Assembly: GCA_026004795.1 (NCBI GenBank)
Contig: BPJV01000003.1
Location: 558,001 to 622,000 of the forward strand
Origin: Pirellulaceae bacterium
Lineage (GTDB): Bacteria > Planctomycetota > Planctomycetia > Pirellulales > Pirellulaceae
Length of the DNA stretch: 64,000 bases
Direction of reading: 5' to 3'
Shown: in pieces, positions 22,127-61,500 of the stretch
Position numbering within the stretch: the stretch's first letter is position 1
Layout of the letters: every line of letters starts with the position of its first letter
The notes under the pieces: model-generated
What the model was told of the DNA's origin: nothing
The model's database searches: none
What the model saw: the letters and a program-made list of their open reading frames with translations, nothing else
Made by a program: the position numbers and the translations under genes

Positions 22127-22553
22127 GCCTCATTTCTCCTCAGTCGCATCTAGATTAACTTGTGCCCAAGCTTCATGGTGCCGGCTTCAACCGCGCACCG
22201 CTTCGCATTCATCGTGCCCATCAACACCAGACCAACCCGTCCTGCGTATTGAGCTTCATGCACTCGTCGTTGCAGATAAGCTTGAGTTTGCGTTGACAGG
22301 CGAGAAAGCCGGTTATACGATGTTGTCAGAAAACTGACTGAATTCAACCTGGGGAGGGTTGTTTTGTCGGCCGAATTCCAATTTTGGTGCTGAATCGCGG
22401 CGCAGTAATCGCGATAGATAGGGTGGTTATCGGCATCAAGCCTCGCTGGCGCTCTTGACTAAGCGGCGCCCCGTCGGTCTGGAAGTTACCGGCCGTGGGC
22501 TGCCCTCTGACAAGTCACGCAATGTAAACTCTCTCACGGCCAGTGAGCGAAGC
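22127..22553. other. Divergent intergenic region upstream of nusA
   Basis: About 430 bp with no convincing gene. A 65-aa minus-strand ORF (22150-22347) has no domain or ribosome-binding site. A short inverted repeat, ATCGCG (22394-22399) with CGCGAT (22410-22415), precedes nusA and could be part of its promoter or leader. The rimP gene that often precedes nusA is not present here. Confidence 0.5.
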
Positions 22554-24212
22554 ATGAATCCAAACGAAATCCTGCGTTTAGTAGACGGTCTCCACCGCGA
22601 AAAACACATCGACACCGAAGTTGTCTTCTCGGCGATCGAGTCGGCGTTGGTGACTGCGCTGCGGAAATTCCGAGGCGAGGACGCTGATATCCACGTCTCC
22701 ATCGACCGCAAATCGGGTGAGATCACGGCGCGCGTCGATGACGACGTGCTTGATCAAACGGTCATCGGTCGCATCGGAGCCCAGACGGCGAAACAAGTCA
22801 TAATCCAAAAGATCAAGGAAGCGGAGCGCGACGCCCTACTGGCCGAGTTCCAGGATCAGGTGGGAGAACTGGTTACCGGCACGGTCCAGCGCAATGACCG
22901 TGGTGTAACCATCGTGCAAGTTGGCAACGTCGAAGCGATCTTGCCGCGTAGTGAGCAGATCTCCGGCGAGTCCTACCACCATGGCGATCGCGTCAAGGCG
23001 ATCATTTACGAGGTGAAAGCTGCTGGGAACCGCGTTAAGGTGATCCTCAGTCGCACCAAGCCGCAGCTGGTGCAACGGCTCTTCGAACAGGAGATCCCGG
23101 AGATCGCTGAAGGGGTGATCGAGATCAAGGCGATCAGTCGCGAGCCTGGGCAGCGGAGTAAAGTGGCCGTGACCAGCTCCGACCAGCGGGTCGATTGTGT
23201 GGGCGCGTGTGTGGGGGTACGCGGCAATCGCATCAAGAACATCACCAGCGAACTGGCCGGTGAACGGATCGACATCGTTCGCTGGAGCCCTGATCCGATG
23301 GAATTAATCCCTGCGGCATTGCAACCGGCCGAGGTGGACCAGGTCCTGCTGTGCGACATGATCGGTCGCGCCATCGTCCTGGTCAAAGACGACCAGCTTT
23401 CGCAAGCCATCGGCAAATACGGACAGAATGTGCGGTTGGCCAGCAAACTGGTCGGCTGGGACATTGAAATCATGACGGCCGAAGAGCTGGAGGATCAGAT
23501 CGACCGTGCGATCAACGCATTCATGGCCTTGGAGGGAATGACCGACGAACTGGCTCAGCGTTTGGTGGAGCAAGGCTACCTGTCCTACGACGACTTGTCG
23601 GTGATCGAACCGGAAGCATTAATGGAAATGGGCGGGTTGACTGAAGAGCAGGTCGATTTGATTGTCGAACAGGCCGACGAGCGTGCCGAGGAAGCCGAAC
23701 GGATCGCGGCTGAAGAAAAACGACTGAAGAAGGAGCGGGCGGCGATCGAGCGCATGGCGGCAGAGAATCCGGCCATGGCTTCGGCGCTGGAAGCGGCTCA
23801 GCAAGCCCAAGCCGGCGATTCGACCTCCCCTGACGCTGCGAGCACTCCTGACCAGGCCGCCAGTGTGGACCAGTCGCCCGAAGAAGATGGCACGCCGGCT
23901 GCGGAGCTGCCGGCAGAGGAGCAGGCCGAAGCGTCACCGACGGCGTCCAACCAGACGCAGGTAGCGCCGGCTGCCCAACCAGCGACGGTTCAACCACCCG
24001 GGGAGAATGCTCCGCCCCCGCCTGCTGCGGACGGAAATATCCCCGAGCAGGATGATGCGCAAGAGGGAACGAGTTCCCCGACGATAGCAGAATCACCAGA
24101 AAACGATTCCGCCGTATCGGAATCGGAACAAGTGCCGGCGGAGGCGACTTCGACGGCCAACAGTACCCAAGAGGAAGCCATGGATAAGACGAATGCAACC
24201 GATCAGAACTGA
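22554..24212 (+). CDS. nusA: Transcription termination/antitermination factor NusA with long acidic tail
   Basis: The start is placed at the ATG at 22554 (MNPNEILRLVDGLHREKHID), the normal NusA N-terminus; the track adds 33 codons. The product is 552 aa: an RNA-polymerase-binding N-domain (1-125), an S1 domain (about 135-200) with GTVQRNDRGVTIVQVG, and two KH domains (about 225-350) with CVGVRGNRIKNI and QAIGKYGQNVRLASKL. A helix-hairpin-helix region (about 370-420) follows, then some 130 residues of Ala/Pro/Glu/Gln-rich disordered tail. NusA modulates pausing, termination and antitermination. The tail is an unusual extension relative to E. coli. It lies upstream of infB, as in most bacteria. 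Confidence 0.96.
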   Translation: MNPNEILRLVDGLHREKHIDTEVVFSAIESALVTALRKFRGEDADIHVSIDRKSGEITARVDDDVLDQTVIGRIGAQTAKQVIIQKIKEAERDALLAEFQDQVGELVTGTVQRNDRGVTIVQVGNVEAILPRSEQISGESYHHGDRVKAIIYEVKAAGNRVKVILSRTKPQLVQRLFEQEIPEIAEGVIEIKAISREPGQRSKVAVTSSDQRVDCVGACVGVRGNRIKNITSELAGERIDIVRWSPDPMELIPAALQPAEVDQVLLCDMIGRAIVLVKDDQLSQAIGKYGQNVRLASKLVGWDIEIMTAEELEDQIDRAINAFMALEGMTDELAQRLVEQGYLSYDDLSVIEPEALMEMGGLTEEQVDLIVEQADERAEEAERIAAEEKRLKKERAAIERMAAENPAMASALEAAQQAQAGDSTSPDAASTPDQAASVDQSPEEDGTPAAELPAEEQAEASPTASNQTQVAPAAQPATVQPPGENAPPPPAADGNIPEQDDAQEGTSSPTIAESPENDSAVSESEQVPAEATSTANSTQEEAMDKTNATDQN

Positions 24213-24510
24213 GGCGACGTCCTCGATCAGTGCGAACTCGTCACGTGAAAACCAATGCGTGAGGGGGTCGAACTGGGCGACGAGGGAAGCGAAGAAGACT
24301 CTGATCGGAATCAGCGAAACTGCCGGCGTTTTCTCCTTTGAGGGAGAATGCGGGATAGTGAACCTGGTTTCCCACATGGGCCTCCCGGCCTCGCGGGGGC
24401 GGCCCATGTAACGCGACGCTGCGTATGCACGAGCAATGGCAGTGTCGCGGGGTACTGAGAATGACCGAAACCGCGACATGGCCATTTTTACTTGTTAGGA
24501 ATTGTTGCAC
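24213..24510. other. nusA-infB spacer with three inverted repeats
   Basis: About 300 bp with no gene. It holds CTGAT/ATCAG (24301-24314), TTCTCC/GGAGAA (24331-24348) and a longer hairpin, ACATGGGCC (24374-24382) with GGCCCATGT (24401-24409), ahead of the infB ribosome-binding site. It could act as a processing site, an attenuator or an infB leader. Confidence 0.5.
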
Positions 24511-27351
24511 GTGCCAAAACGTATTTACGCGTTCGCGAAAGAACTGGGGATGGATAGCAAAGAGCTTGTTGCTCTTTGCGAGAAGGTAGGTATCAAGAAC
24601 AAAGGGTCGGCGCTAGCTAGCCTCGACGACGAGGAGATACAGCGCATCGAGAAACACTTGGCCCAAGCCAAGCAGCCGGCCGAACAGTCGGCGTCCACCG
24701 CGCCCAAGCCTCGCGTGGAAGCTCCCGTCCGTACTGCCCCATTGACCGGTAGGGGGGGACTGGGGAGCAAGCCGCCTGTCATTCCCACCCGCCGCTCCTC
24801 GAAAGCAGCCCAATCGTCTCCCCCAGCGGCCGAGCAAACCGCCCCTTCGCCCGCGGCCAGCGAACCGCCAGCTCCTCCGGCAACTCCTACGGAGCCGGCG
24901 GAGGAAGCCATCACGGCGAAAGCCGATGCGGCCCCGGCGGCTGCGACCAGCGAAAGCAGCGCCGGTTCCGAACCGGTACGAAAACCCATCTCCCGTGATG
25001 ATTATGTTCCTCCGCCCTCGGCCGTCGCCAAAGGTCGGGTGCGCAGCCTCGACATGCGGCGTCCCAAGAGCGATAGCGATGCCAAACCGGCCGAACGCAA
25101 ACGGCCTGCCAAACGGGAACCTATCATCAAGGTAGCGCGCGTCCCCACCGCCGATCTGCCCCCTGTCCCCCCAACCAAGAAGGACGAACCGGCTCCCCAA
25201 CGGCCGGAAATTCGCTTCACCAAAGAGGACATTAGCGGCCAGAAGAAGGGCATGAAAGCCTCGCTGGAGCGACTCGAGGAGCAAAACGAGCGGGAGAAGG
25301 AGCGCCGCCGTGGCATGCCGTCTGCTACCGCCCCCGGTGGCTTGAAGGGTTTCAAGGACGCCGCCGACAAGAAACGGGGACGCCACCGGGAGGAGGACGA
25401 AGACGAGCGGGAAGGCAAGAAGCGTGCTGCCAGCTTGGCGGCCACTCGTGCGGAGCGGCGCAAGCGAGGCAAAGACCTGCTCGAGGAAGAGGAACGCCAA
25501 CCAGCACGTTCCTACAAACGGATCGTCCGCAAAGGCACCAACACGGCTGCTCCGAGGAAGGAGAAAGCCGTTCTGGAGTTGCCTTGTACGGTGCGCAGCT
25601 TTTCGGAAGCGGCCGGTGTTCCCGCCGGCAAGGTGCTCGCCACGCTGATGCAAATGGGCCAGATGCTCAACATCAACGCCAACCTGGACGTGGAATTGGC
25701 GGAACTGCTCGCCCTGGAGTTGGGAGTGGAACTCGAGTTCAAACAACCCAAGTCGCTCGAAGAAGCTGTCATCGAGGAGCTCGAGAACATGCAGGATCCG
25801 CCCGATAAACTCGTCCCCCGGCCACCGGTGATCACCTTCTTGGGACACGTCGACCACGGTAAGACGTCCCTTCTAGACGCCATCATCGGCACGCGCGTCG
25901 TCGATAAGGAGGCCGGAGGCATTACGCAACACATCCGGGCTTACCAAGTGGAAAAAGACGGCAAAGCCATTTCCTTCGTCGACACGCCGGGACACGAAGC
26001 ATTTACGGAGATGAGAGCCCGCGGAGCCAATGTGACGGACATCGCCGTGTTGGTCATCGCTGCCGATGACGGCATCATGCCTCAGACGGAAGAAGCGATC
26101 AGCCACGCCAAGGCGGCCGGCGTACCGATCGTGGTGGCACTGAACAAGATCGATCTGCCGGGCGTCGATACGACGCGCGTGTTGACCCAATTGACCGAAC
26201 ACGAATTGACGCCCAGCGAATGGGGAGGTGATGTCGAGGTCGTCCGCACCAGCGCCCTCACTGGCGAAGGATTGGACGATCTGCTGGACACGGTGCTGAC
26301 GGTCGCTGAATTGCACGAGTACCGCGCCAACCCCGACCGCCCGGCCATCGGCGTGTGCCTCGAAGCGCAGCAGGAGGCCGAACGAGGTGTGGTCGCCAAA
26401 CTGATCGTCAAGAATGGCACGCTTCATGTCGGCGATGTGGTCGTCTGTGGAACCAGCTATGGACGGGTCAAGGCGATGTACGACGCGCTCGATCCAAGCA
26501 AACAGCTGGAGAAAGCCGGCCCGTCCTGTCCGGCCAATGTTATCGGCTTGGAATCTCCCCCTGAGGCGGGTGAGAAGTTCTACGTGCTCGAGGACATCGC
26601 CCAGGCGCGGGAAATCGCCGAGGCGCGTTTCGAACATTCGCGTGCCCAATCGTTGGCCGGTAGCTCTCCCAAGGTCTCCTTCGAGCGATTTCAGGACTTG
26701 CTCGTGTCCGGCCGCTTGGGCCAACAGGAGGAAAAGGTCGAACTCAATCTCATCCTACGTGCCGATACGCGTGGCAGCTTGGAGGCCATTGAGAAGGAAC
26801 TGAGCAAGATCGACCATCCGGAGGTGGAAATCCGTATCCTGCAAAAGAGCGTCGGAGGGATTACGGTTGGCGACGTCACCCTGGCCCATGCCTCCGAAGC
26901 GGTGATCGTCGGTTTCAATGTCATCCCCGATGAACAGGCTAGAGCGTTGGCCGAGGAGAGACATGTCGAGATTCGCCGCTACGACATCATCTATCAGTTG
27001 GCCGAAGACATCAAAGCTTTGATCGAAGGGCGTCTGAAGCCCGAAGAGCGTATTGTCGAATTGGGGCGTGCGTTGGTCAAACAGGTCTTCAATATCTCGC
27101 GCGTGGGAACCGTTGCCGGTTGCTTGGTTGCTCAGGGGTCCATCCAGCGCGGATGCCGCATCCGTGTTCACCGCGATGGCCGCACCATCGGCGATTACCC
27201 GCTCGAGTCGCTCAAACGGCACAAAGAGGACGTCAAGGAGGTGCCACGAGGCATGGAGTGTGGCATCCGGCTGGCCGGATTCAACGACTTGAAACCCGAT
27301 GATGTCCTGGAGGCCTACAAGGTCGAAGAAGTCGCTCGAAAACTCGATTGA
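24511..27351 (+). CDS. infB: Translation initiation factor IF-2
   Basis: I choose the GTG at 24511 (AGGA ten bases upstream, product beginning [12 protein letters not shown]) over the track's TTG at 24502. The 946-aa product has an N-terminal IF2_N domain, then about 300 residues of Ala/Pro- and Lys/Arg/Glu-rich disordered linker. A second IF2_N-like domain (about 350-410) precedes the GTPase domain from about 440: [21 protein letters not shown] and the SALTGEG loop. EF-Tu-like and C-terminal domains follow. IF-2 positions initiator fMet-tRNA on the 30S subunit and promotes subunit joining. It is followed by rbfA, the usual partner in ribosome biogenesis operons. Confidence 0.97.
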
Positions 27352-27436: not shown

Positions 27437-27889
27437 ATGACGAGCCGTAGATTGTTGAAAGCAGCAGAAGCGATCCGGGAAGTGGTCAGCATGGCGATCC
27501 TCACCGAGATCCGAGACCCCCGGGTGCGCAACGTCACGGTAACCAGTGTCGAGGTGGCGCCGGACATGCGTTCGGCAAAAGTGTTCGTCAGCGTGATGGG
27601 TGACTTGGGGCGGCAACAGCTTTGCCTGCGCGGTCTGAACAATGCGGCGGGCTTTCTACAAGCAAAGATCGCCAGCCGTATCGATACGCGTTATACGCCT
27701 CGCCTGACCTTCTCCTTGGACGACGGAGTCAAGAAGAGTCTGGAAGTGGCGCGGATTCTCAAACAGATCGCCGACGAGCGCTCTGCACGAGAACAGCAGG
27801 AAGGTAGCGTCCCGGAAAACGCCTGCGAGTCCCCTGCCGAGTCGCCCCACACCTCGGCGCCCTTCACCGAGGAGGTGGACGAGGAATAA
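27437..27889 (+). CDS. rbfA: Ribosome-binding factor A
   Basis: A 150-aa protein with the single KH-like RbfA fold: [18 protein letters not shown], the conserved [16 protein letters not shown], and [12 protein letters not shown] near the C-terminal end of the domain. A short acidic tail follows. RbfA binds the 30S precursor near 16S rRNA helix 1 and helps late maturation, especially in the cold. The ATG is preceded by AAGGCGGA. It lies 85 bp downstream of infB, consistent with the nusA-infB-rbfA operon. truB, which often follows, is absent here. Confidence 0.94.
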
Positions 27890-28013: not shown

Positions 28014-28862
28014 ATGAGCAAGACGAGCCGCGCGGATCGCATCCAGTTGCTGCAGAAGGTAACTGCAAAAAACTTTACTCCCATCCTCCCCCCTGAGGAT
28101 CGCTCCGTTCTAGAGACGCTGTTGTACGCTTGCTGCTTGGAAGATGCGCCCTACGATGCCGCCGATGAAGCATTCGGGCGGCTGCAGGAATCGTACTTCG
28201 ACTGGAACGAAGTCCGCGTGACGACCATCACCGAGCTTTCCGAAACGCTGCACAACCTGCCGAATCCTCGAGCGGCCGCGATTCGCATCAAGAAGAATCT
28301 ACAGTCGATTTTCGAAACGCGCTATTCTTTTGATCTCGAGGATCTGCGGAAACTCAATCAAGGCAAGGCGGTACAAGAACTGGAAAAGCTGGCCGGCATG
28401 ACCCGCTTCGTCCTCGGCTATGTTGTCCAACATGCCCTCGGTGGTCACGCGGTGCCGGTGAGCGAATCGATCATGAATTTGCTACGGATGCTGGAAATCG
28501 TCTCCGAGGCGGAAGCCGCCAAGGGACAGACGCCAGGTCTGGAACGCACCATCCCCAAGACCAAAGGCATTGACTTCGCCTCCCAATTGCATCAGTTCGC
28601 GGTAGCGGTTGCCCAGTCTCCCAACAGCAGCAAGCTCAAGACGATTCTGAAAGATGCCGGTTACGTTCCTCCGGCAACAAACGAGAACGTGACGACCGGC
28701 GAGGAGGAGACAAAGCCCGGCCCAGCAAAACCCAAACCGCCGAAGAAGAAGAGCTCCGCAAAATCAAAGGCGGTAACGAAGAATAGTTCGGCAACAAAAA
28801 AGAAAACCGCCCCGAGCGCGAAGAAGAAAACCGGAAAGACGGCAAAGAAAAAACCACGTTAA
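28014..28862 (+). CDS. Degenerate HhH-GPD (endonuclease III-like) protein with lysine-rich H1-like tail
   Basis: A 282-aa protein. Residues about 10-220 resemble the HhH-GPD fold of endonuclease III (LETLLYACCLEDAPYDAADEAF, then LPNPRAAAIRIKKNLQSIF). The hairpin and catalytic stretch that normally reads LPGVGRKTA...VDTH is here LAGMTRFVLGYV...VPVSES, so both the catalytic Lys and the Asp appear to be lost. No four-Cys iron-sulfur cluster is seen. The last 60 residues are a Lys/Ala/Pro repeat tail (KKKSSAKSKAVTKN) like histone H1. I infer a DNA-binding rather than glycosylase role. It follows rbfA by about 125 bp and may share its transcript. Confidence 0.72.
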   Translation: MSKTSRADRIQLLQKVTAKNFTPILPPEDRSVLETLLYACCLEDAPYDAADEAFGRLQESYFDWNEVRVTTITELSETLHNLPNPRAAAIRIKKNLQSIFETRYSFDLEDLRKLNQGKAVQELEKLAGMTRFVLGYVVQHALGGHAVPVSESIMNLLRMLEIVSEAEAAKGQTPGLERTIPKTKGIDFASQLHQFAVAVAQSPNSSKLKTILKDAGYVPPATNENVTTGEEETKPGPAKPKPPKKKSSAKSKAVTKNSSATKKKTAPSAKKKTGKTAKKKPR

Positions 28863-28949: not shown

Positions 28950-29705
28950 ATGGCAGGACATTCCCATTGGGCCGGCATCAAGCACAAGAAAGCTCTGGTT
29001 GACGCCAAGCGTAGCAAGCTGTGGTCGAAATTGTCGAAGGCCATCATCGTAGCTGCCAAACTGGGTGGAGGCGATCCCGACGCCAATCCCCGCTTGCGCG
29101 CGGCCATTCAGGAAGCTAAGTCGCTGAGCATGCCCAAGGACAACATCGAACGGGCGATCAAGCGGGGCACGGGTGAAATCGAAGGTGGCAATGTCGAAGA
29201 AGTGCTCTACGAGGGGTATGGCCCCGGGGGCGTGGCCATCATGTGTGATATCATGACGGACAATCGCAATCGAACGGCACCGGAATTGCGCAAGCTATTC
29301 GATACCTACGGAGGTAACCTGGGAGCGACCGGCTGTGTCAGCTATCTATTTGACCGCAAAGGCGTGATCGTCATCCGTGAGGGGATGGAGAATGTCGAGC
29401 GGATTATGGAAATCGCTATGGAAAACGCAGCGGAAGACATCGAAACCTACGACGACCGCATCGAGATCTTCACTGCACCGGAAAACCTCAGTCAGGTCCG
29501 CACGGCATTGGAAGAGGCTGATGTTGCCATCGACGTGGCTCAGGTGGCTCGCATCCCCCAAACGACCGTAGACGTCGATGAGGAGACAGCAAGAAAAGTC
29601 TTGAAGTTGCTGGAAGCGCTCGAAGATCATGACGACGTTCAAAACGTCGCTTCCAACCTGAATTTCGACAATGCTGCGGTCGCCCAAATGATGGAGGCGT
29701 CTTGA
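28950..29705 (+). CDS. YebC/PmpR-family regulatory protein
   Basis: A 251-aa protein that matches the family over its full length: it begins MAGHSHWAGIKHKKALVDAK and continues with LRAAIQEAKSLSMPKDNIERAIKRGTGE. The YEGYGPGGVAIM and DNRNRTAPELRKLF segments are typical. Members have been described as transcriptional regulators (PmpR), mitochondrial TACO1-like translation factors and, more recently, ribosome-associated relievers of polyproline stalling, so the exact role is uncertain. It often lies beside ruvC in other bacteria, but not here. It converges on the ACT-domain gene. Confidence 0.95.
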   Translation: MAGHSHWAGIKHKKALVDAKRSKLWSKLSKAIIVAAKLGGGDPDANPRLRAAIQEAKSLSMPKDNIERAIKRGTGEIEGGNVEEVLYEGYGPGGVAIMCDIMTDNRNRTAPELRKLFDTYGGNLGATGCVSYLFDRKGVIVIREGMENVERIMEIAMENAAEDIETYDDRIEIFTAPENLSQVRTALEEADVAIDVAQVARIPQTTVDVDEETARKVLKLLEALEDHDDVQNVASNLNFDNAAVAQMMEAS

Positions 29706-41870: not shown

Positions 41871-41940
41871 CGAGCGGGGAGGGCCCGAGCGGGGAGGGCG
41901 CGAGCGGGGAGGGCCCGAGCAGAGAGGCCACGAGCGATCC
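41871..41940. repeat. 15-bp tandem repeat, about 4.5 copies
   Basis: CGAGCGGGGAGGGCC begins at 41871, 41886 (ending GGGCG) and 41901. A diverged copy (CGAGCAGAGAGGCCA) is at 41916 and a partial unit at 41931. The 15-bp period keeps one reading frame open, giving the RALPARALPA pattern in the minus-strand ORF, which I take to be spurious. Confidence 0.85.
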
Positions 41941-50050: not shown

Positions 50051-53000
50051 TTATGGCTTGTAAGAAGAGTCTGCGTCGCTTGTCAGCAAGTCGAGAATGG
50101 ATTCCAAGTCATCCTCCTCACGCGAGTCCGCGAGTACCGTATCTAATGCGACGACATCCACCGCGACAATGCGGTTGGCGTCGACGTGGCGCGCATGGTG
50201 CGACGGCAAACGGGAGAAAAGTACGTCGCGCCCATCCTGAGTGTTGGTGGGTGTGCGTTGGACATTCTGATGCTGCCGCGGCGCGGCGAGCGGCAGAATC
50301 CGTTCACGCCAACGAGGAATCGCACTATCGTGCGATTCCCAAGGGCCAAGACCAGCACCACTCCAGGCCTGCGCCTGATCCGCGGACGATGGACCAGCAA
50401 ACTCGGCAGTGAATTCCGCTTCACCGCCAACTCTTCGGTTCAAGTGATTGATGATCAGCAACGCGTCGAGTGGTTGCAGGTAGTCGTCACCCGTCGTGTC
50501 ATAGAACGGCGCTGGCAATGAACCTAATAACGAGGGACGCGGCAATGGGCGAGAACCATTACGGTTAATTGCGTTAATCACCAACAACACGTCCAATGGG
50601 GTTACGTAACTATCCTGGTTGACGTCCAAGCGGTTGACCGGATTCTGCCAACTCGCTGGAATCACCACAGCTCGCGTCCCCCAATTTCCGGGAATCTGCT
50701 CCAAACGATACCCTCCAGCCATGATGGTATTGACGTCGCCTGGCCATTCGAGCACGTTGCCGTCGTCGAGGATCGTCCCCATGGGCACTCCGTCCGGCAG
50801 ACTGATCATCCCGTTCGTCCAAGTGCTGTCGATCAATTCGATCAGCTCGATACCCGGAGACTTGCCCATCCGCCATCGCTCGTCTTTCGCTGTTAGCTGC
50901 ACGTCCACCGTTGCGCCGGTAACCTGGATCGAACCAAATCTCCCGGCATCGAATTGACCACGCAATCCGCTGCGGCGACCGTCGGTATAAGGCACCACGA
51001 CGATCGACTCGACGGGCCCCTCCACATGCAACCCCATAAAAACATCGTTCGCGACAATCGATTTCACACCGCCCGCTACGTGAATCGATCCCGGTGAATT
51101 GATGCGGCCGCCTTTGCACTGACCGGCATAACAGTACTCGCTGACGGCGATATCCACATCGCGGAATTGCGCGTCGGTCAATTCAATGCCGGCGTTCAAA
51201 TCGCCACCGGTAATCTGGATAGCATCAATGCTGCCGGCTTGAAGGTTGCCGTTCACGTCGCCGCCAAGAAGCAGCGTTGCGTGAGTCGTGGCCGTCACCG
51301 TGTTGATATGTGTGGCCGTCAGGTCGGCGTTCATCGTACCGGCCGAGACGGTGATCACATCGACCGTGCCAAGGACGTTGAGCGTTCCTGTCAGGTCTCC
51401 ATTGGTCACGGACAATTGCCCGCTGTCACCCGAACCGGGCCGATTCGCGGTTCCGACTTGGAAATGCGTCGGGGCAAAATCACCGTTGGCGAATGTCAAA
51501 TTGTCGAATCCGTTGCGCAGCGAGACGCCTCCCCGGAACTCACCCTGAATCAACCCGCTCCCCAGACTTTTCGCCCGGAGTTCGCCCGACAACCACGAGC
51601 CGGCGATTTGGAGGTTGCCGATTCGCTGGTCTGCCGAGATCGACACCCCGTCGGCACCGGGAGCCGTACCGAAGTTTCCGAAGGCCAGAATGGTAACCGG
51701 CGAGGACGCCGAATTCTGGATGTCGATGCGCCCGCGATCGATTCCCGTCGTGAGCACCGAACCGGTCACATCACCGTCCACATCCAACACACCTTCGAAA
51801 TGCGTGACCGTAGATAGATCGATCGACTCGATTCCGCCGTGCGACCGAACGACGACCGGCAGCGATTGGCCGGTGCCGTATCCGTTGCCGGACAACAGCG
51901 TGATATAAGTGTCATCAGGCATGGTATCGAACAACTCGATCACCACGGCGGGCTCCGGAGTGCCGCCGGGCGACACCACTTCCGGACCGATGCCGACCTG
52001 GACTTTTCCCGCACCGGTGATGTCCAAGTCGTGCGGCAAACGCTGATCCATGCGCTCGAGGAACCGGTTCAAATCGAACAGGAACTCATCGAGGGCGCCG
52101 TTCTTCTTGCCCAGCACTGACACGCTGTCGATTTGCATGTTCGGGTCGGTGGTCGCAATGCGGAAGGTGATTGGTTGGGCGAGAACTGGAAGTGTCATGT
52201 CATTCGCTTCGAACTCGCCGGGCAACGCGATTTCATATCGATCCCAATCATGATACGAGAGAGCCGGCGTGCTTTGCCCGCTGGTGGTGATTTCGTGGAA
52301 CGTTGTGCCGTCCAAACTCCACTGGAGCCTCCAGTCCGGCTGCCGGGACGTGGTGCGAGTGTAAAACCGGAACTCGGTCGGATCGTAGTTCAAGATGAGC
52401 GAACTTGGCTGGACGGTGAAGTCCCACGACGCTTCGGCACGCGGCGGCACCGCGATCCCCAGCGCATTGGAACCGCCGAGCCAGAAAAGGCCGTCCTCTT
52501 CAACGAGTCCGGGAAGTCCTCGCTTGGAAACGACGAGCTTGCCGAAATGATCAACGGGCGCGGGATCCATACTGTTGCGCAAGTCCTGGCCAAGGGGCGT
52601 GTAGTCTAAAGAGCCGGGCTGCGGGTCGTCGAACGTCCAGTGAGCGAGGGCGCCATAGGGAGCGGTCCAAAGTCCGGCCGGGTAATCATTGGGATCGGGC
52701 GGGTCGTCGTTTTGCAACGTCACGCTCATGGCCGTGACGCCTTGGAAAAGACTCGTATCGCTGCCGGCCGGGGGCGAGAAACTGTCGACGGTGATCGCGA
52801 TATGAAACTGTTCGTTGAGTGCTTCGAACAGGTTCGCGTCGGCAACGATGTCGATCTCAATGTACTTCGTGTCGGTCATCTGCGACGAGTCGACGGAAAA
52901 GTCAATCGGGCCCGTGGTCACGACGTTGTAATCGGAGCCCGGTTGAGCCGTGTCGGCGGTCACGTCGAAGCTCACTCGCACTGTTGTCGGCTGATCGGCA

Positions 53001-56000
53001 GCCGCCAAAGCTTGCAGGGTTACCGGAATGCGGATTCGCGTCGTTCCGTTGTCGCCTTCATGAATCACCACCTCCGGTCCGGCCAGCGGTGTTCCGTCGA
53101 CCAGCTCCGCGCTGGGTCCCAGATCGAGTCGGACTTGCCCTTCGGCCACTCCGCAATTGCCGCCTGGCAAATTGAACGTGCCTTGCAGCGCTCCGAATTG
53201 AACTTGCAAGCATCCTCCCGCGTCCAGCGAACCGCTCATGGCCGGATTTGTGCTGTCGCCCGCCGGTACGCCTGCCAGAAATCCCCAACCGGTGAAACTG
53301 CCCGTCGCTTGCGTTCCGTCAAAGGCAAAGCTTAAATCCCCGTGCGCTTCCAAAACGGCGGGTACGTTCGGCACGGCGTCGATGTGCACCTCGGCCGAGA
53401 GTGTGACATTGGTGACCGTTGGCAAACCGCTTAGATCCGGTGGCACTACAGTGAAACCACCGTTGAATGAAACGCCGAAAGCTCCCAACAGATTGCTGTC
53501 GCCGCGGATATTCGAGAAATGCAAAGCACCATCCGCGTCGACGCGTATCGACGCACTGGCGTGCTCCAATGAAAAACCGGGAATGATCAGTGTGGCATCA
53601 GACAGCTCGATCGACATCCCGGCCGTGGCGGGCCGCGTATCGAACAACAGCGAAAGTGTTCCGCCGTCGATCTTCACGGGCCAACTGCCGTCGGCGAGCG
53701 GGTTGTTGTCGCTTGGGGCGATCAACTGCATGTTGCCGAAGCCCCCCGTGTCGTCAGCGCCGAATTGAAAGGATGCCTCTTCCGAGCCGGGATTGCCCAA
53801 GGTCGTTTCGCGATAGGGCATCTCAAAGGTCAATCCCAGGAGGTTGACCGAGGCCCCCAATCCCATGGTCACGGTCGAACCACCGCCTGGTGCGGTTTCG
53901 CGCCGCAAGGTCAGTTGCACACCTTCGGCACCGGTTCCCGGCAGGAAGAATGCGGCCCCGGAAATCGCATCGGCTGTTCCCGTAGCGCTGAAATCGGGAA
54001 TCAGACCTGATTCGGGCAAGGAAATATTGAACGTGAAACTGCCGTCGGTGATCAATCCGGGAATGTCGATGTCGGCCAACAACTCCGCTCCGCCGCGGCG
54101 CATGATAAGCGGATCGGTCTCGTCATAGGAGTAGCCCGGCGAGTACACACGCATGCAACCGCCGTTATCGGTTCCCGTGCGAAGTTGCAACCAACCTGGT
54201 GTAGCCTCCGGATTATTCGGGTCAATCCCCATCAATCCGCCCACGCCGATGGCGGTTAAGAACCGGTTGAACTGGGCGGTCGCATTGACGACGGTGTGGA
54301 CGTTGGGAAGACCAAAAGCGGCGCAGGCGGCCGGCGCATTGCCGAGGATCACTTCGGCAGCCACGCGCGGGAGGCCGCCATCGAGTTGCTCGTCGCCGTC
54401 GTCGCCGGCCGTAGGCAGCACGCGATCCCCCACAGCTTGCCGCACGCCGTCGTTGTTCAGGTCGATAAACACTTCGCCTTGAGGATCGAATCGGCCGTTC
54501 TTGTTCAGGTCGACCCATTCCTGCTCGGTGTAAACACCATCGCCGTTCAGATCCGTCCAGGGCTCGGGAAGGTCGATCTGCCCGTTGCGGGGATTCGTGT
54601 CTTCATACTCCCAGTACTCGGCGACACCGTTGCGATTCAAGTCGCTCCAAGGATCCCCCGAATCCCAGCGGCCGTTCTTGTTCAAATCTTCGAACGGCTC
54701 GGCGGCATCGACCACCCCGTTTCCGTTCTTGTCGTTCCACACTTCACCCGGATCCCATAAGCCGTCGCCGTCGAAATCACCGCCCAATGCGTCCCAAGTG
54801 CCGTTGCCGTTCCAGTCTTCCAGCGGTTCTCCCGGCTGCCACTGGCCATCACCGTTCGTGTCCTCAAACGGCTCGGGTGCGAACGGCTCGGCCAGATTGA
54901 ACCCAGGCGTGCCGTTGATCTCTTCATACTGTTCGGCGGCGCTGGAATTCAGGTCGACGAGAAAACGGGTTTCGAGTCCGAGGAAGTCGCCGATAATCTC
55001 CAACTGTTCGCCGCGGCCGATCACCAGCGCTTCGCCGAGGTCGACTCCCAAGAGTTTGCCGGTTGTGGCATCCGGATTGCCGGGCACACTTTCCACGCTG
55101 CCGTACTGGCCGAAGAGGTAGCCGTCGGTCGCCCACTTCTCGCTAAGTTGGTCTCCCAACTCGGCAGCTCGCCCCGTCAGCCGAGCGACCAGCTCAGCCG
55201 GCGGCAGACCGACCAGCTCGTCAAGCCCGCCGAGCTCTTCCACGACGGGTGTCAGTAGATCGGGGACGAACAACTGAAGCTGAGCGACCTGCTGCTGAGC
55301 CGTAATCGCACCGGGAACTTCAGTCAAGAATCGCAGGAAGGCAAACGTCTCGTCCGGATGGGCGATCACGCACGAAATCGTATCGTCGCACTGCTGGCCA
55401 AGGCCTTGCATGTGCGCCAAGAGATCGTTTTTTACTTCATTGAAAAGGTCGACCGGTTCGGTCAGGAACCGCGGCAGAGTCAGCCGGCCGTCCAGCAGGA
55501 TGCCGCCACCCTGGATCTTGTCCCAGTTGGTCCGACCGCTGTCGTCGGGCAACTGCGGATCAACGTAGATCTTGCCGCTGCCCAGCTGACCCGGATCGGT
55601 TACGAGCAGATGTTCGGTTTCCTTCAAGTATCGGGCGCCTGTCGTGGCCGTGTTGTCTTCCAACACCACGTCGCCGGGGAACATCAAGCCTTGCACTTGG
55701 GCCAATTCCAAGCCATAGAGGTCCACCGTGCCGCCCAGACCCGCGAACCAAGGTGAAGGACCGCTGAAATCGATTTCCGGAATCCGATTGAGAAACAGGT
55801 CCTTGAACAAGTTGGTGAACGGGACATGGACATTGACGTTCGTGATGTCGGACATGGGGGAGACCGGCAGCGTGCCTTGAGTGGCAATTCGCATGAGTTG
55901 CTCGATCAACCGCACTTGGGCATCGATGTCGATTCGCGTCTTGTCGATCCGCACGTGAACTCGCTCGCGCGGCGGTCCGATCGGGAAGCCCAGGATGACG

Positions 56001-58492
56001 GGCTGGACGTAGCCTTCGATCGAGAAACTGGGATTCATCACATCGAAAAAGGCGTTGGTTGCCTCTTCAGCCGCACTGCCAAGGGTCGAAAAGATGACCG
56101 ACGCGATCGCTCCAGCCATCCGGGCCGACTTCTCCATCCGCGTGCGTGATTCAATGAGGCTGTCGGCCAGAGACAAGCCGGAGCTGTCGGGCTCGATCGA
56201 ATCGACGAGGCTGACTAACTGAGTGAAATGCGTATCGGCCAAGGCGGTCGCCCGTTCGACCCCTGCCACGAACAAACGCTGAATCAGTTGATCGAGCTGC
56301 GGAATTCCGGTGGTGAACAGTTGCGGGTCCCAATCCACATCCAATTCCGGCGCCACTTGCATCAAGTCGGTCAGCAATTTGCCGGCAGCCATTACACCTA
56401 ATTGGAAAGTCTCTGAATCAATGCTCCCTGGTGTCAGCAAGTCGGCAATCGAAGGGATCGCTGCTGGAACCTGGCTGCCACCGAGCATTCGGTTTTTCAG
56501 GAATGCCGTGTCGATCAACGTCTCCGAAGCACTGCCAAGCTCATCGCCAGGGCCGCCCTCGTCGAGTTGTCGATTTTCGTTTAGATCGAGCAAGAACTTG
56601 AAGAAGGCCGGACGTTGGCGCTCGCGGTCGACGGCCTGTTGGGCCGCGGTGATCAAACTGTCGAACACCGAGGAGTTGCCGTTGAGTGCCTTGAGTCGTT
56701 CCAGTCGAGCGACTTCAGCCTCCAGGATCGCAAGTTTACCAATGTACGCGAGGCGCTCGTTTTCGTACCGCCTAGCAACCAGCCCGAGTGCTTGATCCAA
56801 ATAGGTGTTGCTTTCGTTGGCAATGGTCTCCAGAAACGCGCGCGCGGCAATCGCGGTGCCGGCCGCCAGTCCATCGGTGTCGAATTGAGCGCCGATGCGG
56901 GCTTGCATCGGAAGCAGTAGTGACAGTAAGCCACCGGTGCCCGGGATTCCCGCCGCTACATTGATACTTGGATTGATGGGGTCGCTGGAGTCGAACACGA
57001 TGTCCGCCTGCGCGAGCGACTGGCCCAGGATCTCGACATCTCCGCGAACGAATACTTGAGCCTTGGACTGGGAAAGTGCTTCGAGCGTTGCCGCATCGTA
57101 ACCAACGTTCATTCCCACCGTGACCCGCCCGCCGATGGCGTTGTACAGATTCGTATTGGTGAGCACGCCGCTAACGACTAAGCGGAATCCTTTGTTCCAT
57201 GTGAATGTTGGCTCGTATTGATTCTTATTAACGATCCGCGTGATGGCAGCTTCGATCTCCGACGGTGAGAGGTTTTTTGGGCGGGCGAATTCGGGACGCG
57301 CGAGGATGTCGATCGGATTGGCCACTTCCTCGATTGGTGGCGCGTCGAAGACCAGAGCTCCTTCTAAGCCCTCGATGACGAAACCGGTCTGATTGCCGAT
57401 CTGGTAGCCGGCCGCGGCACCGATTCCGAAAAACGCCGCACCAACCCCGGCGCCAACGATGCCTCCAATTGGAATCGGCACACCCGATTTCAACCGCACC
57501 AGGACAGGACCATATTGCGTGATGACCAGTTCCGCACCAATTCCCACGTTGCCTGCCGATAACTCGCCTTGCACTTGAGCGTAAAGAACTTGACGGTGCT
57601 CGGAGTTGTCGAGTTGGACGTCCTGGACACCAAGGGTCAAGCCGCCTCCGATAGAAACCGGCCCCAGTTCGAAGGGCTCCATGCCGATCGATACTCCGTT
57701 GACGCTCGAAACGTCGAAAGGCAGCGGACACGTCTCGCTGCCGATCAAGGCGGGATGGGTTGCGCACGAGTTCGAAACGTATCTTGCCAGTTCGGCCAGT
57801 TTGATTTCCAACTTCTTGATTTGAGCGCGGATCGGCCAACCCCCTTCGCTCGATTCAAGCCCGCCGCTGACGATCAGCCGATAGTTGCGCGGGTCGACCA
57901 GTTCCTGAAACGGCGTGAGGGAATCCGAGCCGAGTTGATCAAGCGTTAAATCAAAATCGTCGCCTGTCCCTTCCGCACCCTTGAAGCGAATGCCGACTTC
58001 CGTGACATGCAACGGGAACCAATCGGGTAGTCCAAAAACATTGCCCCCCGGAACTCCCGAATCTTCGTCGATGGCGACACGGAAGAACGCGCCGATCGTC
58101 TCGTCAAAATCCAGCGTCGCCGGATCATCGACTGGTTCGGCTGCCATGACGAACACACGTTGCAAATCGGCACTAATGCCGAATCCGCCAGCTTCAAAGG
58201 TAAGTCCTTTGATCGAATCGGGCGCGGCCTCTTCAACCCGTACCCCGGCTTGGCGCAGAATAAAGTAAGGTTCGTTCGCTGCGGCGTCCGTATTCACCTG
58301 GGCCCGTCCGAATATCGTGAAGTAATCGCCCAGGGGAATTTCCACCATGCCGGTGTCAAACGACTCCAATGAGGCCTGGAACGACAAATCGAACGGCTGC
58401 GCTGGCGTGGCACGATTAGCCAGGACGGTATTGAACCGGGCGTAGCCTTGGTCCACGCCGAACCAGCTTGTGTCGACCGACGCCTCGACCAC
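50051..58492 (-). CDS. Giant secreted calcium-binding dockerin-like protein, C-terminal part (after in-frame TGA)
   Basis: A 2813-aa ORF from a GTG with no signal peptide. The frame is open for 13 more codons upstream, up to the TGA at 58532, so I treat it as the distal part of the gene that continues to the right edge. At about 1200-1357 it has ten D-x-N-x-D/N-G loops (DTNGDGQW, DLNKNGRW) like thrombospondin type 3 or EF-hand calcium sites. A Calx-beta-like segment lies at about 1800-1915, and beta-strand repeats at about 2230-2530 (GRIDIQNSAS, IGNLQIAGSW). A dockerin type I-like pair (DVNQDSYVTPLDVLLVINAINR, DTTGDDYLQPLDALLIINHLNR) is near 2617-2690. Planctomycete dockerin-like repeats may act in surface attachment; the ligand is unknown. 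Confidence 0.82.
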   Translation of the reverse strand: MVEASVDTSWFGVDQGYARFNTVLANRATPAQPFDLSFQASLESFDTGMVEIPLGDYFTIFGRAQVNTDAAANEPYFILRQAGVRVEEAAPDSIKGLTFEAGGFGISADLQRVFVMAAEPVDDPATLDFDETIGAFFRVAIDEDSGVPGGNVFGLPDWFPLHVTEVGIRFKGAEGTGDDFDLTLDQLGSDSLTPFQELVDPRNYRLIVSGGLESSEGGWPIRAQIKKLEIKLAELARYVSNSCATHPALIGSETCPLPFDVSSVNGVSIGMEPFELGPVSIGGGLTLGVQDVQLDNSEHRQVLYAQVQGELSAGNVGIGAELVITQYGPVLVRLKSGVPIPIGGIVGAGVGAAFFGIGAAAGYQIGNQTGFVIEGLEGALVFDAPPIEEVANPIDILARPEFARPKNLSPSEIEAAITRIVNKNQYEPTFTWNKGFRLVVSGVLTNTNLYNAIGGRVTVGMNVGYDAATLEALSQSKAQVFVRGDVEILGQSLAQADIVFDSSDPINPSINVAAGIPGTGGLLSLLLPMQARIGAQFDTDGLAAGTAIAARAFLETIANESNTYLDQALGLVARRYENERLAYIGKLAILEAEVARLERLKALNGNSSVFDSLITAAQQAVDRERQRPAFFKFLLDLNENRQLDEGGPGDELGSASETLIDTAFLKNRMLGGSQVPAAIPSIADLLTPGSIDSETFQLGVMAAGKLLTDLMQVAPELDVDWDPQLFTTGIPQLDQLIQRLFVAGVERATALADTHFTQLVSLVDSIEPDSSGLSLADSLIESRTRMEKSARMAGAIASVIFSTLGSAAEEATNAFFDVMNPSFSIEGYVQPVILGFPIGPPRERVHVRIDKTRIDIDAQVRLIEQLMRIATQGTLPVSPMSDITNVNVHVPFTNLFKDLFLNRIPEIDFSGPSPWFAGLGGTVDLYGLELAQVQGLMFPGDVVLEDNTATTGARYLKETEHLLVTDPGQLGSGKIYVDPQLPDDSGRTNWDKIQGGGILLDGRLTLPRFLTEPVDLFNEVKNDLLAHMQGLGQQCDDTISCVIAHPDETFAFLRFLTEVPGAITAQQQVAQLQLFVPDLLTPVVEELGGLDELVGLPPAELVARLTGRAAELGDQLSEKWATDGYLFGQYGSVESVPGNPDATTGKLLGVDLGEALVIGRGEQLEIIGDFLGLETRFLVDLNSSAAEQYEEINGTPGFNLAEPFAPEPFEDTNGDGQWQPGEPLEDWNGNGTWDALGGDFDGDGLWDPGEVWNDKNGNGVVDAAEPFEDLNKNGRWDSGDPWSDLNRNGVAEYWEYEDTNPRNGQIDLPEPWTDLNGDGVYTEQEWVDLNKNGRFDPQGEVFIDLNNDGVRQAVGDRVLPTAGDDGDEQLDGGLPRVAAEVILGNAPAACAAFGLPNVHTVVNATAQFNRFLTAIGVGGLMGIDPNNPEATPGWLQLRTGTDNGGCMRVYSPGYSYDETDPLIMRRGGAELLADIDIPGLITDGSFTFNISLPESGLIPDFSATGTADAISGAAFFLPGTGAEGVQLTLRRETAPGGGSTVTMGLGASVNLLGLTFEMPYRETTLGNPGSEEASFQFGADDTGGFGNMQLIAPSDNNPLADGSWPVKIDGGTLSLLFDTRPATAGMSIELSDATLIIPGFSLEHASASIRVDADGALHFSNIRGDSNLLGAFGVSFNGGFTVVPPDLSGLPTVTNVTLSAEVHIDAVPNVPAVLEAHGDLSFAFDGTQATGSFTGWGFLAGVPAGDSTNPAMSGSLDAGGCLQVQFGALQGTFNLPGGNCGVAEGQVRLDLGPSAELVDGTPLAGPEVVIHEGDNGTTRIRIPVTLQALAAADQPTTVRVSFDVTADTAQPGSDYNVVTTGPIDFSVDSSQMTDTKYIEIDIVADANLFEALNEQFHIAITVDSFSPPAGSDTSLFQGVTAMSVTLQNDDPPDPNDYPAGLWTAPYGALAHWTFDDPQPGSLDYTPLGQDLRNSMDPAPVDHFGKLVVSKRGLPGLVEEDGLFWLGGSNALGIAVPPRAEASWDFTVQPSSLILNYDPTEFRFYTRTTSRQPDWRLQWSLDGTTFHEITTSGQSTPALSYHDWDRYEIALPGEFEANDMTLPVLAQPITFRIATTDPNMQIDSVSVLGKKNGALDEFLFDLNRFLERMDQRLPHDLDITGAGKVQVGIGPEVVSPGGTPEPAVVIELFDTMPDDTYITLLSGNGYGTGQSLPVVVRSHGGIESIDLSTVTHFEGVLDVDGDVTGSVLTTGIDRGRIDIQNSASSPVTILAFGNFGTAPGADGVSISADQRIGNLQIAGSWLSGELRAKSLGSGLIQGEFRGGVSLRNGFDNLTFANGDFAPTHFQVGTANRPGSGDSGQLSVTNGDLTGTLNVLGTVDVITVSAGTMNADLTATHINTVTATTHATLLLGGDVNGNLQAGSIDAIQITGGDLNAGIELTDAQFRDVDIAVSEYCYAGQCKGGRINSPGSIHVAGGVKSIVANDVFMGLHVEGPVESIVVVPYTDGRRSGLRGQFDAGRFGSIQVTGATVDVQLTAKDERWRMGKSPGIELIELIDSTWTNGMISLPDGVPMGTILDDGNVLEWPGDVNTIMAGGYRLEQIPGNWGTRAVVIPASWQNPVNRLDVNQDSYVTPLDVLLVINAINRNGSRPLPRPSLLGSLPAPFYDTTGDDYLQPLDALLIINHLNRRVGGEAEFTAEFAGPSSADQAQAWSGAGLGPWESHDSAIPRWRERILPLAAPRQHQNVQRTPTNTQDGRDVLFSRLPSHHARHVDANRIVAVDVVALDTVLADSREEDDLESILDLLTSDADSSYKP

Positions 58493-58531: not shown

Positions 58532-58534
58532 TCA
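58532..58534 (-). other. Single in-frame TGA splitting the giant gene
   Basis: On the minus strand the frame reads SVSEGTTI-TGA-GTSYTDTKLDLDW and then straight into the GTG (Val in the continuous reading) at which the track's downstream ORF begins. The TGA is the only stop in 4,649 codons before the final stop at 50051. One base change from CGA, GGA, TGG or TGC would restore the frame. It could be a nonsense mutation, an assembly error or a read-through site. Confidence 0.85.
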
Positions 58535-61500
58535 GATCGTCGTGCCTTCCGAAACGGAGATCTGGCCTACGGCCGACGCCCGGACGCTGTTGTTTTCATT
58601 GGGACGCGTGTCGCGCAGCGTAAAGGTACCGGCGATATCGCCGTCCCAGCTCCCGTTGACAAACTTCCCCAAGTACAACGCACCGTCGGCAGCAACCGAT
58701 GTGGCGGGAATCGGTACGTTGCGGGCACCGATGAAGATGGGGCCGAGTTCGGTGAACATCAGTTGCCGGTCGGGATTGAGCAACGACGAAGCCTCGACTT
58801 CCACCTGAACAAAACCGTTTTCACAGAGGGTTAATCCTTGAACGTCAGGAAACTCGTTGGAATCGATTTCAGGCCAGTTGATGACCGTGCCGCTCGAGCA
58901 ACTTTGTTGATCGGGTCGGCCAATCGCCAGGATCGGATCAAAGGGCAACGCCGCAAAGAACCCTCGCTTCTTGGGCTTCCCATCTTGCATGACGACGTTG
59001 CCGTCCTCGTCTGTTTCATACAAGTTAAATTGTGCGTCGACGCTAAGTTTGAACGTGTCCAGTTGGTTCGTATCAGGAAACTCAAGGTGGACGTTTTCGA
59101 CCGTCAGTGGCAAGAGATCTCGCAGGTTGAATTCGTCCAGCCCCTGGCCGACTGGTAGATCGAAGCCTACCGCCTGGCCGAAGGCGAAGGCAGCGTCGCG
59201 CACGATTTGGCCTGCATCGATCTCAGGCCGCTTCAGTGCCAGCAGCGGAACGTCGTCATCGGGATTCGTATCTTGAATTTGGAACGGTTCGTCGCCGAAG
59301 AACGGTACGGTGATGCCGACGCCACCCGCCTGGAGAAGATTCGGACCACCGGCCAAATCGATCTTTCCGTCATAGATTTCAAGGAAGACGACGTCTTTGA
59401 TACCGGCAGAGAAGCGTTCAGCCCCAAGGGCCAGGCCATCTGTACTCAATGTTCCAAACCCACCCTCGATGGCCACCAGGCCTTCTGGTGAATTGGGGTC
59501 GTCCGGGTATAGCGGTGTGCCGCCGTCGCTGACTTCGTACAACAACGCATCGAGGTCGGAAACGCCGATTTCAGCCGCAACGCTAGTTGGAGGACCCAAG
59601 ATGTCCTGCTGATTGAAACGCACGTCCAATTCAGCCGCCAGGCGCGCTCGGGAAACCAGCAGCCAGTCGCCCAGTCGGACCTCGGTCGGCTTGCCCGTCA
59701 GGATACCATTTTCTACTCTCCACACGCCTCGCTCCACTTGCCAGGGATCAGCGGGCGTGCTGGTGAGCGGATCCTGAGCCAACTCGACATAGGTGCCGGA
59801 TGCTGCCTGTTTGGCAAAGACGCGGTAATTCTGGAACTGGGCCGAGCGGGTGGACGCGGCCAGCCCGGCAAGTCCTCCGGCGAAACTGCTCGAAAACTGA
59901 TAGTTTGCTTGTACGTTAAACCCGCCTGTGCTCAATTGGCGACCCACGCGCACCTGGCCGCCGTTCCACTCGACGCGCATCCGGATCATCCCGGAGACTC
60001 CCGCCAACTCTTCAGCGTTACCATTGGCCAGAACGGTCCAGCGCGGCTCGCTCGAGCCCACGTTGCCAGAGGAACCGCCCGCTTCCACCAATTCAAACTG
60101 ACCAATAACCCACCGTTTGCCGAACTCGGTCGTGTTTTCGAGCCCCGCGAACTTGAACCGATCCGGCGACTGGTAATCAAAGATCATCATTCCGCCGAGT
60201 TGCCCGTCGACGTCTACTTCGATCGCCCCGATGGTCGGTACCGCCTCTCTGCGAGTTAACACGGCATCCGCACCGATCTCGGTCACGACCTCGGCATGCA
60301 GTCCTTGGTTGTCCACCTGAGCTTGAAAGCCGATTTCGGTTGGAACGCCCTCTTGCAAGCTGTACGGGATCAACAATCGGCCTTGCAACTGAGCGTCGAA
60401 ATTGAATTCGGTGTCGACGGAAAAGGCCAGCCCCGTATCGCGCAGCTCAAATCCCTCGATCTCGGCCGTCACTCCCGTGTCCACGGGCTTGGGCGGTTGG
60501 ATGGTGATGCTGTAATAGGGATTGCGGCCGCCGGCGTCGTCCGACACACGCAGGTAATAGACGCCGGCCGGTTGCCCCAAGAGCGAAACACGAGCGCGAT
60601 CGCCGAACGCCAAAGCGTCTCCACGTACGAATACGACCGACCGCCCGCCGGTGGCCGAGTCAACGGTCTCGCGATACAGTTCCAGGTCCAAGTCGCCCCG
60701 CTGCCGCGCGAAGTCGACTTGCACGTAGCTGGTCGGTGTGCCGCGCGATGTGATTTCGAAACGGAACCAATCGGCGGCATCGCGCAAGGCCAAGGGAACT
60801 ACGGTCAATTTCTGGTTGGGGATTCCCAGGTCGCCTGGCCCGCCGACAAGCAACTGATGGTAGTCGCCCAAGAATTCGTGAACGTCGTCCTTTTCCTGTC
60901 CGTTTACCGTAATGGTTTGCGTCTTGAGCGCTTCAGCCAATTGCGGGTCGATGTTGAGATCCAGCGTTCCCGTTCGCAACTCGAACACGGTGGGCAGATC
61001 GGCGCCTTCCGGCGGGCGGTCGGCGGGCGCGATCGTATCAAGTGACGGTTTGAAAACGGCTCCCGCCAGCGGCAGAGACAAGCTCGGATCGGTAGCGCCG
61101 CTGCCCGCTTCGCTCACACCCGGTATTTTCGCATTGGCAGCGAGCATCAATTGGAACGAGTCGAGCGGGTTGCCGTCAAAACCGACTTGCAGATGCTGCA
61201 ACTGATCGAGATGGCTCAACCGAAGCTTTCCATCAGCGGGCGCCACGTGGCTCCAATCAGCTTGGACTTTGGTCGTGAGATACCCTTCGCCATGTTCCAA
61301 GGTCAGGATTCCGTCGAACAGTTCGAGCTGAGCGTCGATATGGGCGGCAATCCCAAAACGCGCTCCCATGTCGGTTACCGGCCGCTGTTGGGGTTCCGAT
61401 TTGGCGGTGCGATCCGGCCGCGTGCGGATGTAGAAGGAATCGTTGGATGAATCGAGTCCGAACACGATCTGGCCGGTCAGTTCCGGGCGATCCACGGAGG

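Follow-up and report, generated by a model that had tools for sequence, protein, structure and literature searches.

An endonuclease III-like protein beside rbfA in Planctomycetota that has very likely lost its chemistry

Introduction

Catalytically dead DNA glycosylases are rare. In the 64,000-nucleotide stretch of Pirellulaceae DNA analysed here (the window), an ORF had been read, from the letters alone, as an endonuclease III (EndoIII)-like protein without catalytic residues and iron-sulfur (Fe-S) cysteines, which had gained an H1-like tail and might have become a structural DNA-binding protein with a link to the nucleoid or to ribosome-gene expression. What, then, is such a protein doing beside rbfA? 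The analysis described below indicates that a repair fold of long standing now probably serves a new, non-enzymatic purpose.

Results

A conserved gene under purifying selection

The ORF at 28014-28862 on the forward strand begins with an ATG start codon and encodes 282 amino acids plus a stop. Homologs with the frame kept were found in 60/60 Pirellulales genomes, confirming the ORF as real, and all 40 of the listed genomes of the class, taken from an even draw over the phylum, carry the gene. Over the core, omega was 0.03-0.10 in close pairs of relatives, indicating strong purifying selection and, thus, that cells require the protein for some purpose. A pseudogene was ruled out by these values together with the intact frame across the order. 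Since an Nth-like protein and MutY, two other true HhH-GPD proteins, are encoded by genes of their own in the same genome, ordinary repair is covered. A promoter and terminator scan around the gene gave no excess over shuffled sequences. A phage or plasmid origin was also ruled out, as no relative of the window protein was found in the viral contigs or in the plasmid set; plasmid matches from other phyla, found with basal clade members, look like ordinary glycosylases, with the Asp and the hairpin intact where read. The literature searched on planctomycetes gave no report of a pseudo-EndoIII family, and the gene goes without mention in the main text of the essential-gene paper on Planctopirus limnophila, a genome-wide transposon study in the same phylum (PMC10632474).

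Descent from an EndoIII-type glycosylase

Residues 1-218 (28014-28667, forward strand) form an all alpha-helical, two-domain core with the HhH-GPD fold, as judged by AlphaFold, Foldseek and hmmsearch against the PDB. The AlphaFold2 model of the core (residues 1-224), built from seven sequences only, had a pLDDT of 90 and a pTM of 0.88. The 50 best PDB matches given by Foldseek were all HhH-type DNA glycosylases or their homologs, among them EndoIII-1 and EndoIII-3, ROS1, EndoIII, MutY and Mag2, with query-normalised TM-scores of 0.47-0.65. In hmmsearch, Deinococcus radiodurans EndoIII-1 was matched at an E-value of 5e-9 by a profile of 58 relatives (A3) and at 8e-27 by a wider clade profile (A4), the latter over nearly its full length including the Fe-S region. 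The descent proposed from sequence alone is borne out by these profile and structure matches, which together rule out a chance likeness to EndoIII. In a Pfam search the window protein matched no family, PF00730 included, and only 2/62 clade members matched PF00730. A weak match was obtained to NF053634, the NCBIfam family of DR2438-type monofunctional glycosylases, at 23.4 bits, under the curated cut-off of 400. By fold and ancestry the window protein belongs to the HhH-GPD superfamily, within which it is very likely a non-catalytic variant; the fold itself is not new.

Catalytic and DNA-contact residues

The helix-hairpin-helix and catalytic segment, LAGMTRFVLGYVVQHALGGHAVPVS (28389-28463, forward strand), is degenerate in profile alignments. 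The position of the EndoIII catalytic Lys is taken by Phe132 (28407-28409, forward strand), in agreement with the alignment of the sequence-only reading; the Lys is absent from 64/64 clade members, and Phe stands there in 58/58 class sequences. The claimed loss of the catalytic Asp is true of the window protein, which has Ser150 (28461-28463, forward strand), but is partial by lineage, given that the Asp is kept in 18/18 other class members and in 15 of 40 Pirellulales; the remainder of the latter have Ser (16), Asn (5), Gly (2) or Cys (2). Thr, Asn, Gly and His also occur at this position across the clade. Because the Lys is absent from all members and the Asp is variable, the Lys loss must be old and fixed and the Asp loss more recent and repeated. 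The His that follows the Asp is lost as well, as against 19/19 in ordinary relatives. From these alignments, the window protein has very likely lost its chemistry.

The residues that would contact DNA have changed too; equivalences for these were taken from sequence alignment, not from model coordinates. In EndoIII, DNA is gripped by loops that intercalate, by the hairpin and the Fe-S loop, and by a basic cleft (cf. PMC9268735). The hairpin of the window protein reads G-M-T, not G-x-G, with Thr130 replacing the second Gly, which is Thr, Ser or Asn in 25/25 class representatives. The wedge Gln is lost, and the class representatives have Glu43 (24/25) and mostly Asp or Asn44. The region equivalent to the Fe-S loop (28602-28658, forward strand) is without cysteines, so that C-X6-C-X2-C-X5-C is missing from the window protein as had been claimed; the loop is gone from all class representatives except L061, and its cysteines are kept there and in basal clade members. 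The mean net charge over residues 8-200 was -4.2 in the class representatives versus +7.3 in ordinary planctomycete EndoIII-like proteins. With the core now acidic and the hairpin GxG, wedge Gln and Fe-S loop degraded, it is doubtful that the core binds DNA as EndoIII does, and any DNA binding would rest mainly on the tail.

A disordered basic tail

Residues 219-282 (28668-28859, forward strand) form a Lys/Pro/Thr/Ala tail with a net charge of +16, disordered in the full-length model, where its pLDDT was about 42. The gained Lys/Ala/Pro tail of the earlier reading is, thus, real and about 64 residues long. Its description as H1-like is apt for a basic, low-complexity, disordered tail but is a likeness of composition only. 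A basic tail was present in every class member examined, with a class mean of about +26 and a range of +9 to +50 in Pirellulales, and basic charge has moved from the core to the tail. The tail ends in KKKPR (28845-28859, forward strand), and [KR][KR]KP[RK] was found in 39/40 Pirellulales. Two clade members outside the class, L143 and L151, have Lys-rich tails of more than 160 and more than 300 residues, respectively, far exceeding that of the window protein.

A clade with its own signature

A tree was built of 85 proteins, comprising matches from the class and from the other classes of planctomycetes, together with ordinary EndoIII-like proteins of planctomycetes. A single clade, spread across Planctomycetota, took in 64 of them with a support of 0.87, many of the deeper nodes being weakly supported; the class representatives, and likewise a second rbfA-linked clade, were each recovered at 1.0. 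In the ordinary proteins (n = 19) the Asp and the His next to it are present in every case, and the Lys and second hairpin Gly in 18/19 each. The clade's only invariant residues fall within D-W-N-E-x-R, which is D-W-N-E-V-R at residues 63-68 of the window protein (28200-28217, forward strand): Asn65 and Arg68 were present in 64/64 and Asp63 and Glu66 nearly always, and the signature is invariant or nearly so in A4. In the class alignment the invariant residues were Asn65, Arg68, Val69, Leu96, Phe100, Phe132, His145 and Lys182, for which no catalytic history is known.

The exact spacing of the Fe-S cysteines is kept in many clade members outside the class. Within the class the cysteines are kept in L061, which adjoins rbfA, and they are kept also in L138 and L139, from distant families, whose genes adjoin rbfA too; linkage to rbfA may therefore be older than the loss of the cluster. 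Compared across the clade, the proteins point to a graded series in which the Lys was lost first, followed by the Fe-S cluster, the hairpin and the Asp in various lines. Separately, a second HhH-GPD protein of the window's class (L077, genome G195), encoded in an open frame of 617 residues, has Tyr where the Lys would be but an intact Fe-S motif, and so falls close to the border between the ordinary proteins and the dead ones. The Nth-like protein of the window's own genome (L065, C1:921960-922367) keeps both Lys and Asp, and its C-terminal cysteines misfit the usual spacing.

Gene neighbourhood

In the window the gene order is nusA (22455-24212; Pfam NusA_N and KH_5), infB (24502-27351; Pfam IF-2), rbfA (27437-27889; Pfam RBFA and synteny), the pseudo-EndoIII gene and yebC (28950-29705; Pfam Transcrip_reg), all on the forward strand. 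RbfA and IF2 work on the 30S subunit. The place beside rbfA, pointed out previously, was the rule in the class: infB-rbfA lay upstream, rbfA directly so, in 58/58 loci, and yebC lay downstream within the flank in 21/58 and also in distant lineages. Outside the class, the 20 best matches had rbfA upstream in 10 cases, yebC downstream in 6, either in 12 and neither nearby in 8. Seen from rbfA, the linkage does not hold throughout the phylum, since only 1/30 loci (the 30 best-scoring rbfA of a 149-genome phylum draw) had the pseudo-EndoIII gene within 1.5 kb. L137-L144, chosen for having rbfA on the same contig, are not an unbiased sample; in three of these, L140, L141 and L143, all from distant planctomycete lineages, an XdhC/CoxI-family gene stands between rbfA and the pseudo-EndoIII gene, and yebC follows. 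The gene after yebC varies and was once ruvC, a DNA-recombination gene. YebC is a 23S rRNA-binding factor that aids translation (PMC12234827), and the rbfA and yebC neighbours suggest a role in translation at least as much as one in the nucleoid.

Comparison with known systems

The closest solved relative by sequence, and the top Foldseek match, was D. radiodurans EndoIII-1 (DR2438; PDB 4UNF, 8A5F; NF053634), an enzyme whose action is mostly that of a monofunctional glycosylase (PMC9268735). Unlike the window protein it has the Lys, the Asp, a GVG hairpin and four Fe-S cysteines, and lacks a Lys-rich tail and N-E-x-R. D. radiodurans EndoIII-3 (PDB 4UOB) shares the fold and has no detectable glycosylase activity; it differs in that neither the catalytic residues nor the Fe-S cluster have been lost and in its strong binding to damaged DNA (PMC9268735). 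The glycosylase domain of plant ROS1 (PDB 7YHO) has the same fold and is, unlike the window protein, an active 5-methylcytosine glycosylase/lyase. Given that ROS1 has D-W-x-x-x-R in common with the window protein but not N-E, the Trp and Arg of the motif may be partly structural. Mag2 of Schizosaccharomyces pombe is an AlkA-type eukaryotic protein and, unlike the window protein, has neither a comparable long basic tail nor a tie to translation genes; the title of its PDB entry (4B21) describes binding to AP sites by this homolog of HhH glycosylases. Bacterial H1-like or HU proteins such as AlgP also carry a low-complexity basic tail of Lys, Ala and Pro; the likeness is one of composition only, and they are without a glycosylase-fold core.

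Discussion

The explanation ranked first, to which we give a probability of about 0.4, is that the protein is a non-catalytic adaptor linked to translation or RNA, with the tail holding RNA or DNA. The D-W-N-E-x-R face of the folded core would dock on a protein or structured-RNA partner, and the complex would be tethered to a polyanion by the disordered, Lys-rich tail, which ends in KKKPR. Because the neighbours are infB, rbfA and yebC, the partner would most likely be part of the translation apparatus (ribosomal RNA, a subunit or the nascent transcript) and not a DNA lesion. This adaptor reading is favoured by the absence of the Lys and the variability of the Asp beside an unvarying Asn65 and Arg68, by the change of core charge with loss of the second hairpin Gly and wedge Gln, and by a tail that is basic in every examined class member and disordered in the window model. 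It is favoured further by rbfA directly upstream at all 58 class loci and half of the 20 best outside it, by yebC, a translation-factor gene, at 6 of those 20, by homology to EndoIII, by the Fe-S-bearing L138 and L139 also adjoining rbfA, by a low omega, and by the Nth-like and MutY genes, which cover ordinary repair. Against it, genes may keep their place in an operon without sharing a function, DNA would be bound by a Lys-rich tail no less readily than RNA, rbfA and yebC are not close by in many members of the clade from outside the class, and ruvC follows yebC in at least one lineage. That the dead EndoIII clade came to serve the ribosome, or the coupling of transcription and translation, as an accessory factor, with D-W-N-E-x-R as a new binding site and the Lys-rich tail as a nucleic-acid tether, is a tentative proposal; if true, a DNA-repair enzyme has become a translation factor.

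The HhH-GPD fold and the Lys/Ala/Pro tail would also suit a nucleoid architectural protein, ranked second, whose dead core would bind duplex DNA or bend it, with no chemistry, while the H1-like tail would neutralise the backbone and so help in compacting the dense chromosome of planctomycetes. Gemmata is among the planctomycetes with highly condensed nucleoids, for which few DNA-binding candidates are known (PMC3440768). Since the hairpin GxG, the wedge Gln and the Fe-S loop are gone from the core, which is no longer positively charged, and translation-factor neighbours are found in every class member, we regard this as rather unlikely. A sensor of lesions or AP sites, binding damaged DNA to recruit or shield in the manner of Mag2 and DrEndoIII3, would fit the Mag2 structures among the Foldseek matches, the Asp and Fe-S cluster kept in some lineages, and the finding that inactive DrEndoIII3, with its catalytic residues, binds damaged DNA best of the three D. 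radiodurans enzymes (PMC9268735). With the acidic wedge loop of the class, the degenerate hairpin and the acidic core, it is an improbable role here, ranked third. The Lys is dispensable in MutY, and a protein that is still a monofunctional glycosylase, with another acid substituting where Asp150 is missing, could account for the Asp kept in all non-Pirellulales class members and 15/40 Pirellulales and for the weak match to NF053634. Little weight is given to this last-ranked reading, given the Ser of the window lineage and the Thr, Asn, Gly and His elsewhere in the clade, the loss of the adjoining His, and a score of 23 bits against a cut-off of 400.

In the literature searched, no dead DNA glycosylase was found that is fixed throughout a class as a member of the core infB-rbfA cluster. 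With its stepwise losses and its gain of a tail and an acidic core, the graded series makes the evolution from enzyme to scaffold readable in living lineages, and planctomycete biology gains a conserved, orphan and testable gene.

Elsewhere in the window, two giant ORFs are adjacent on the reverse strand. That at 50051-58492 (2813 aa) had a dockerin type I match near its C-terminus as its only match, and that at 58532-63991 (at least 1819 aa), which extends almost to the window end, had no Pfam match. A tandem repeat of 15 bp in 4.4 copies at 41871-41936 overlaps ORFs on both strands.
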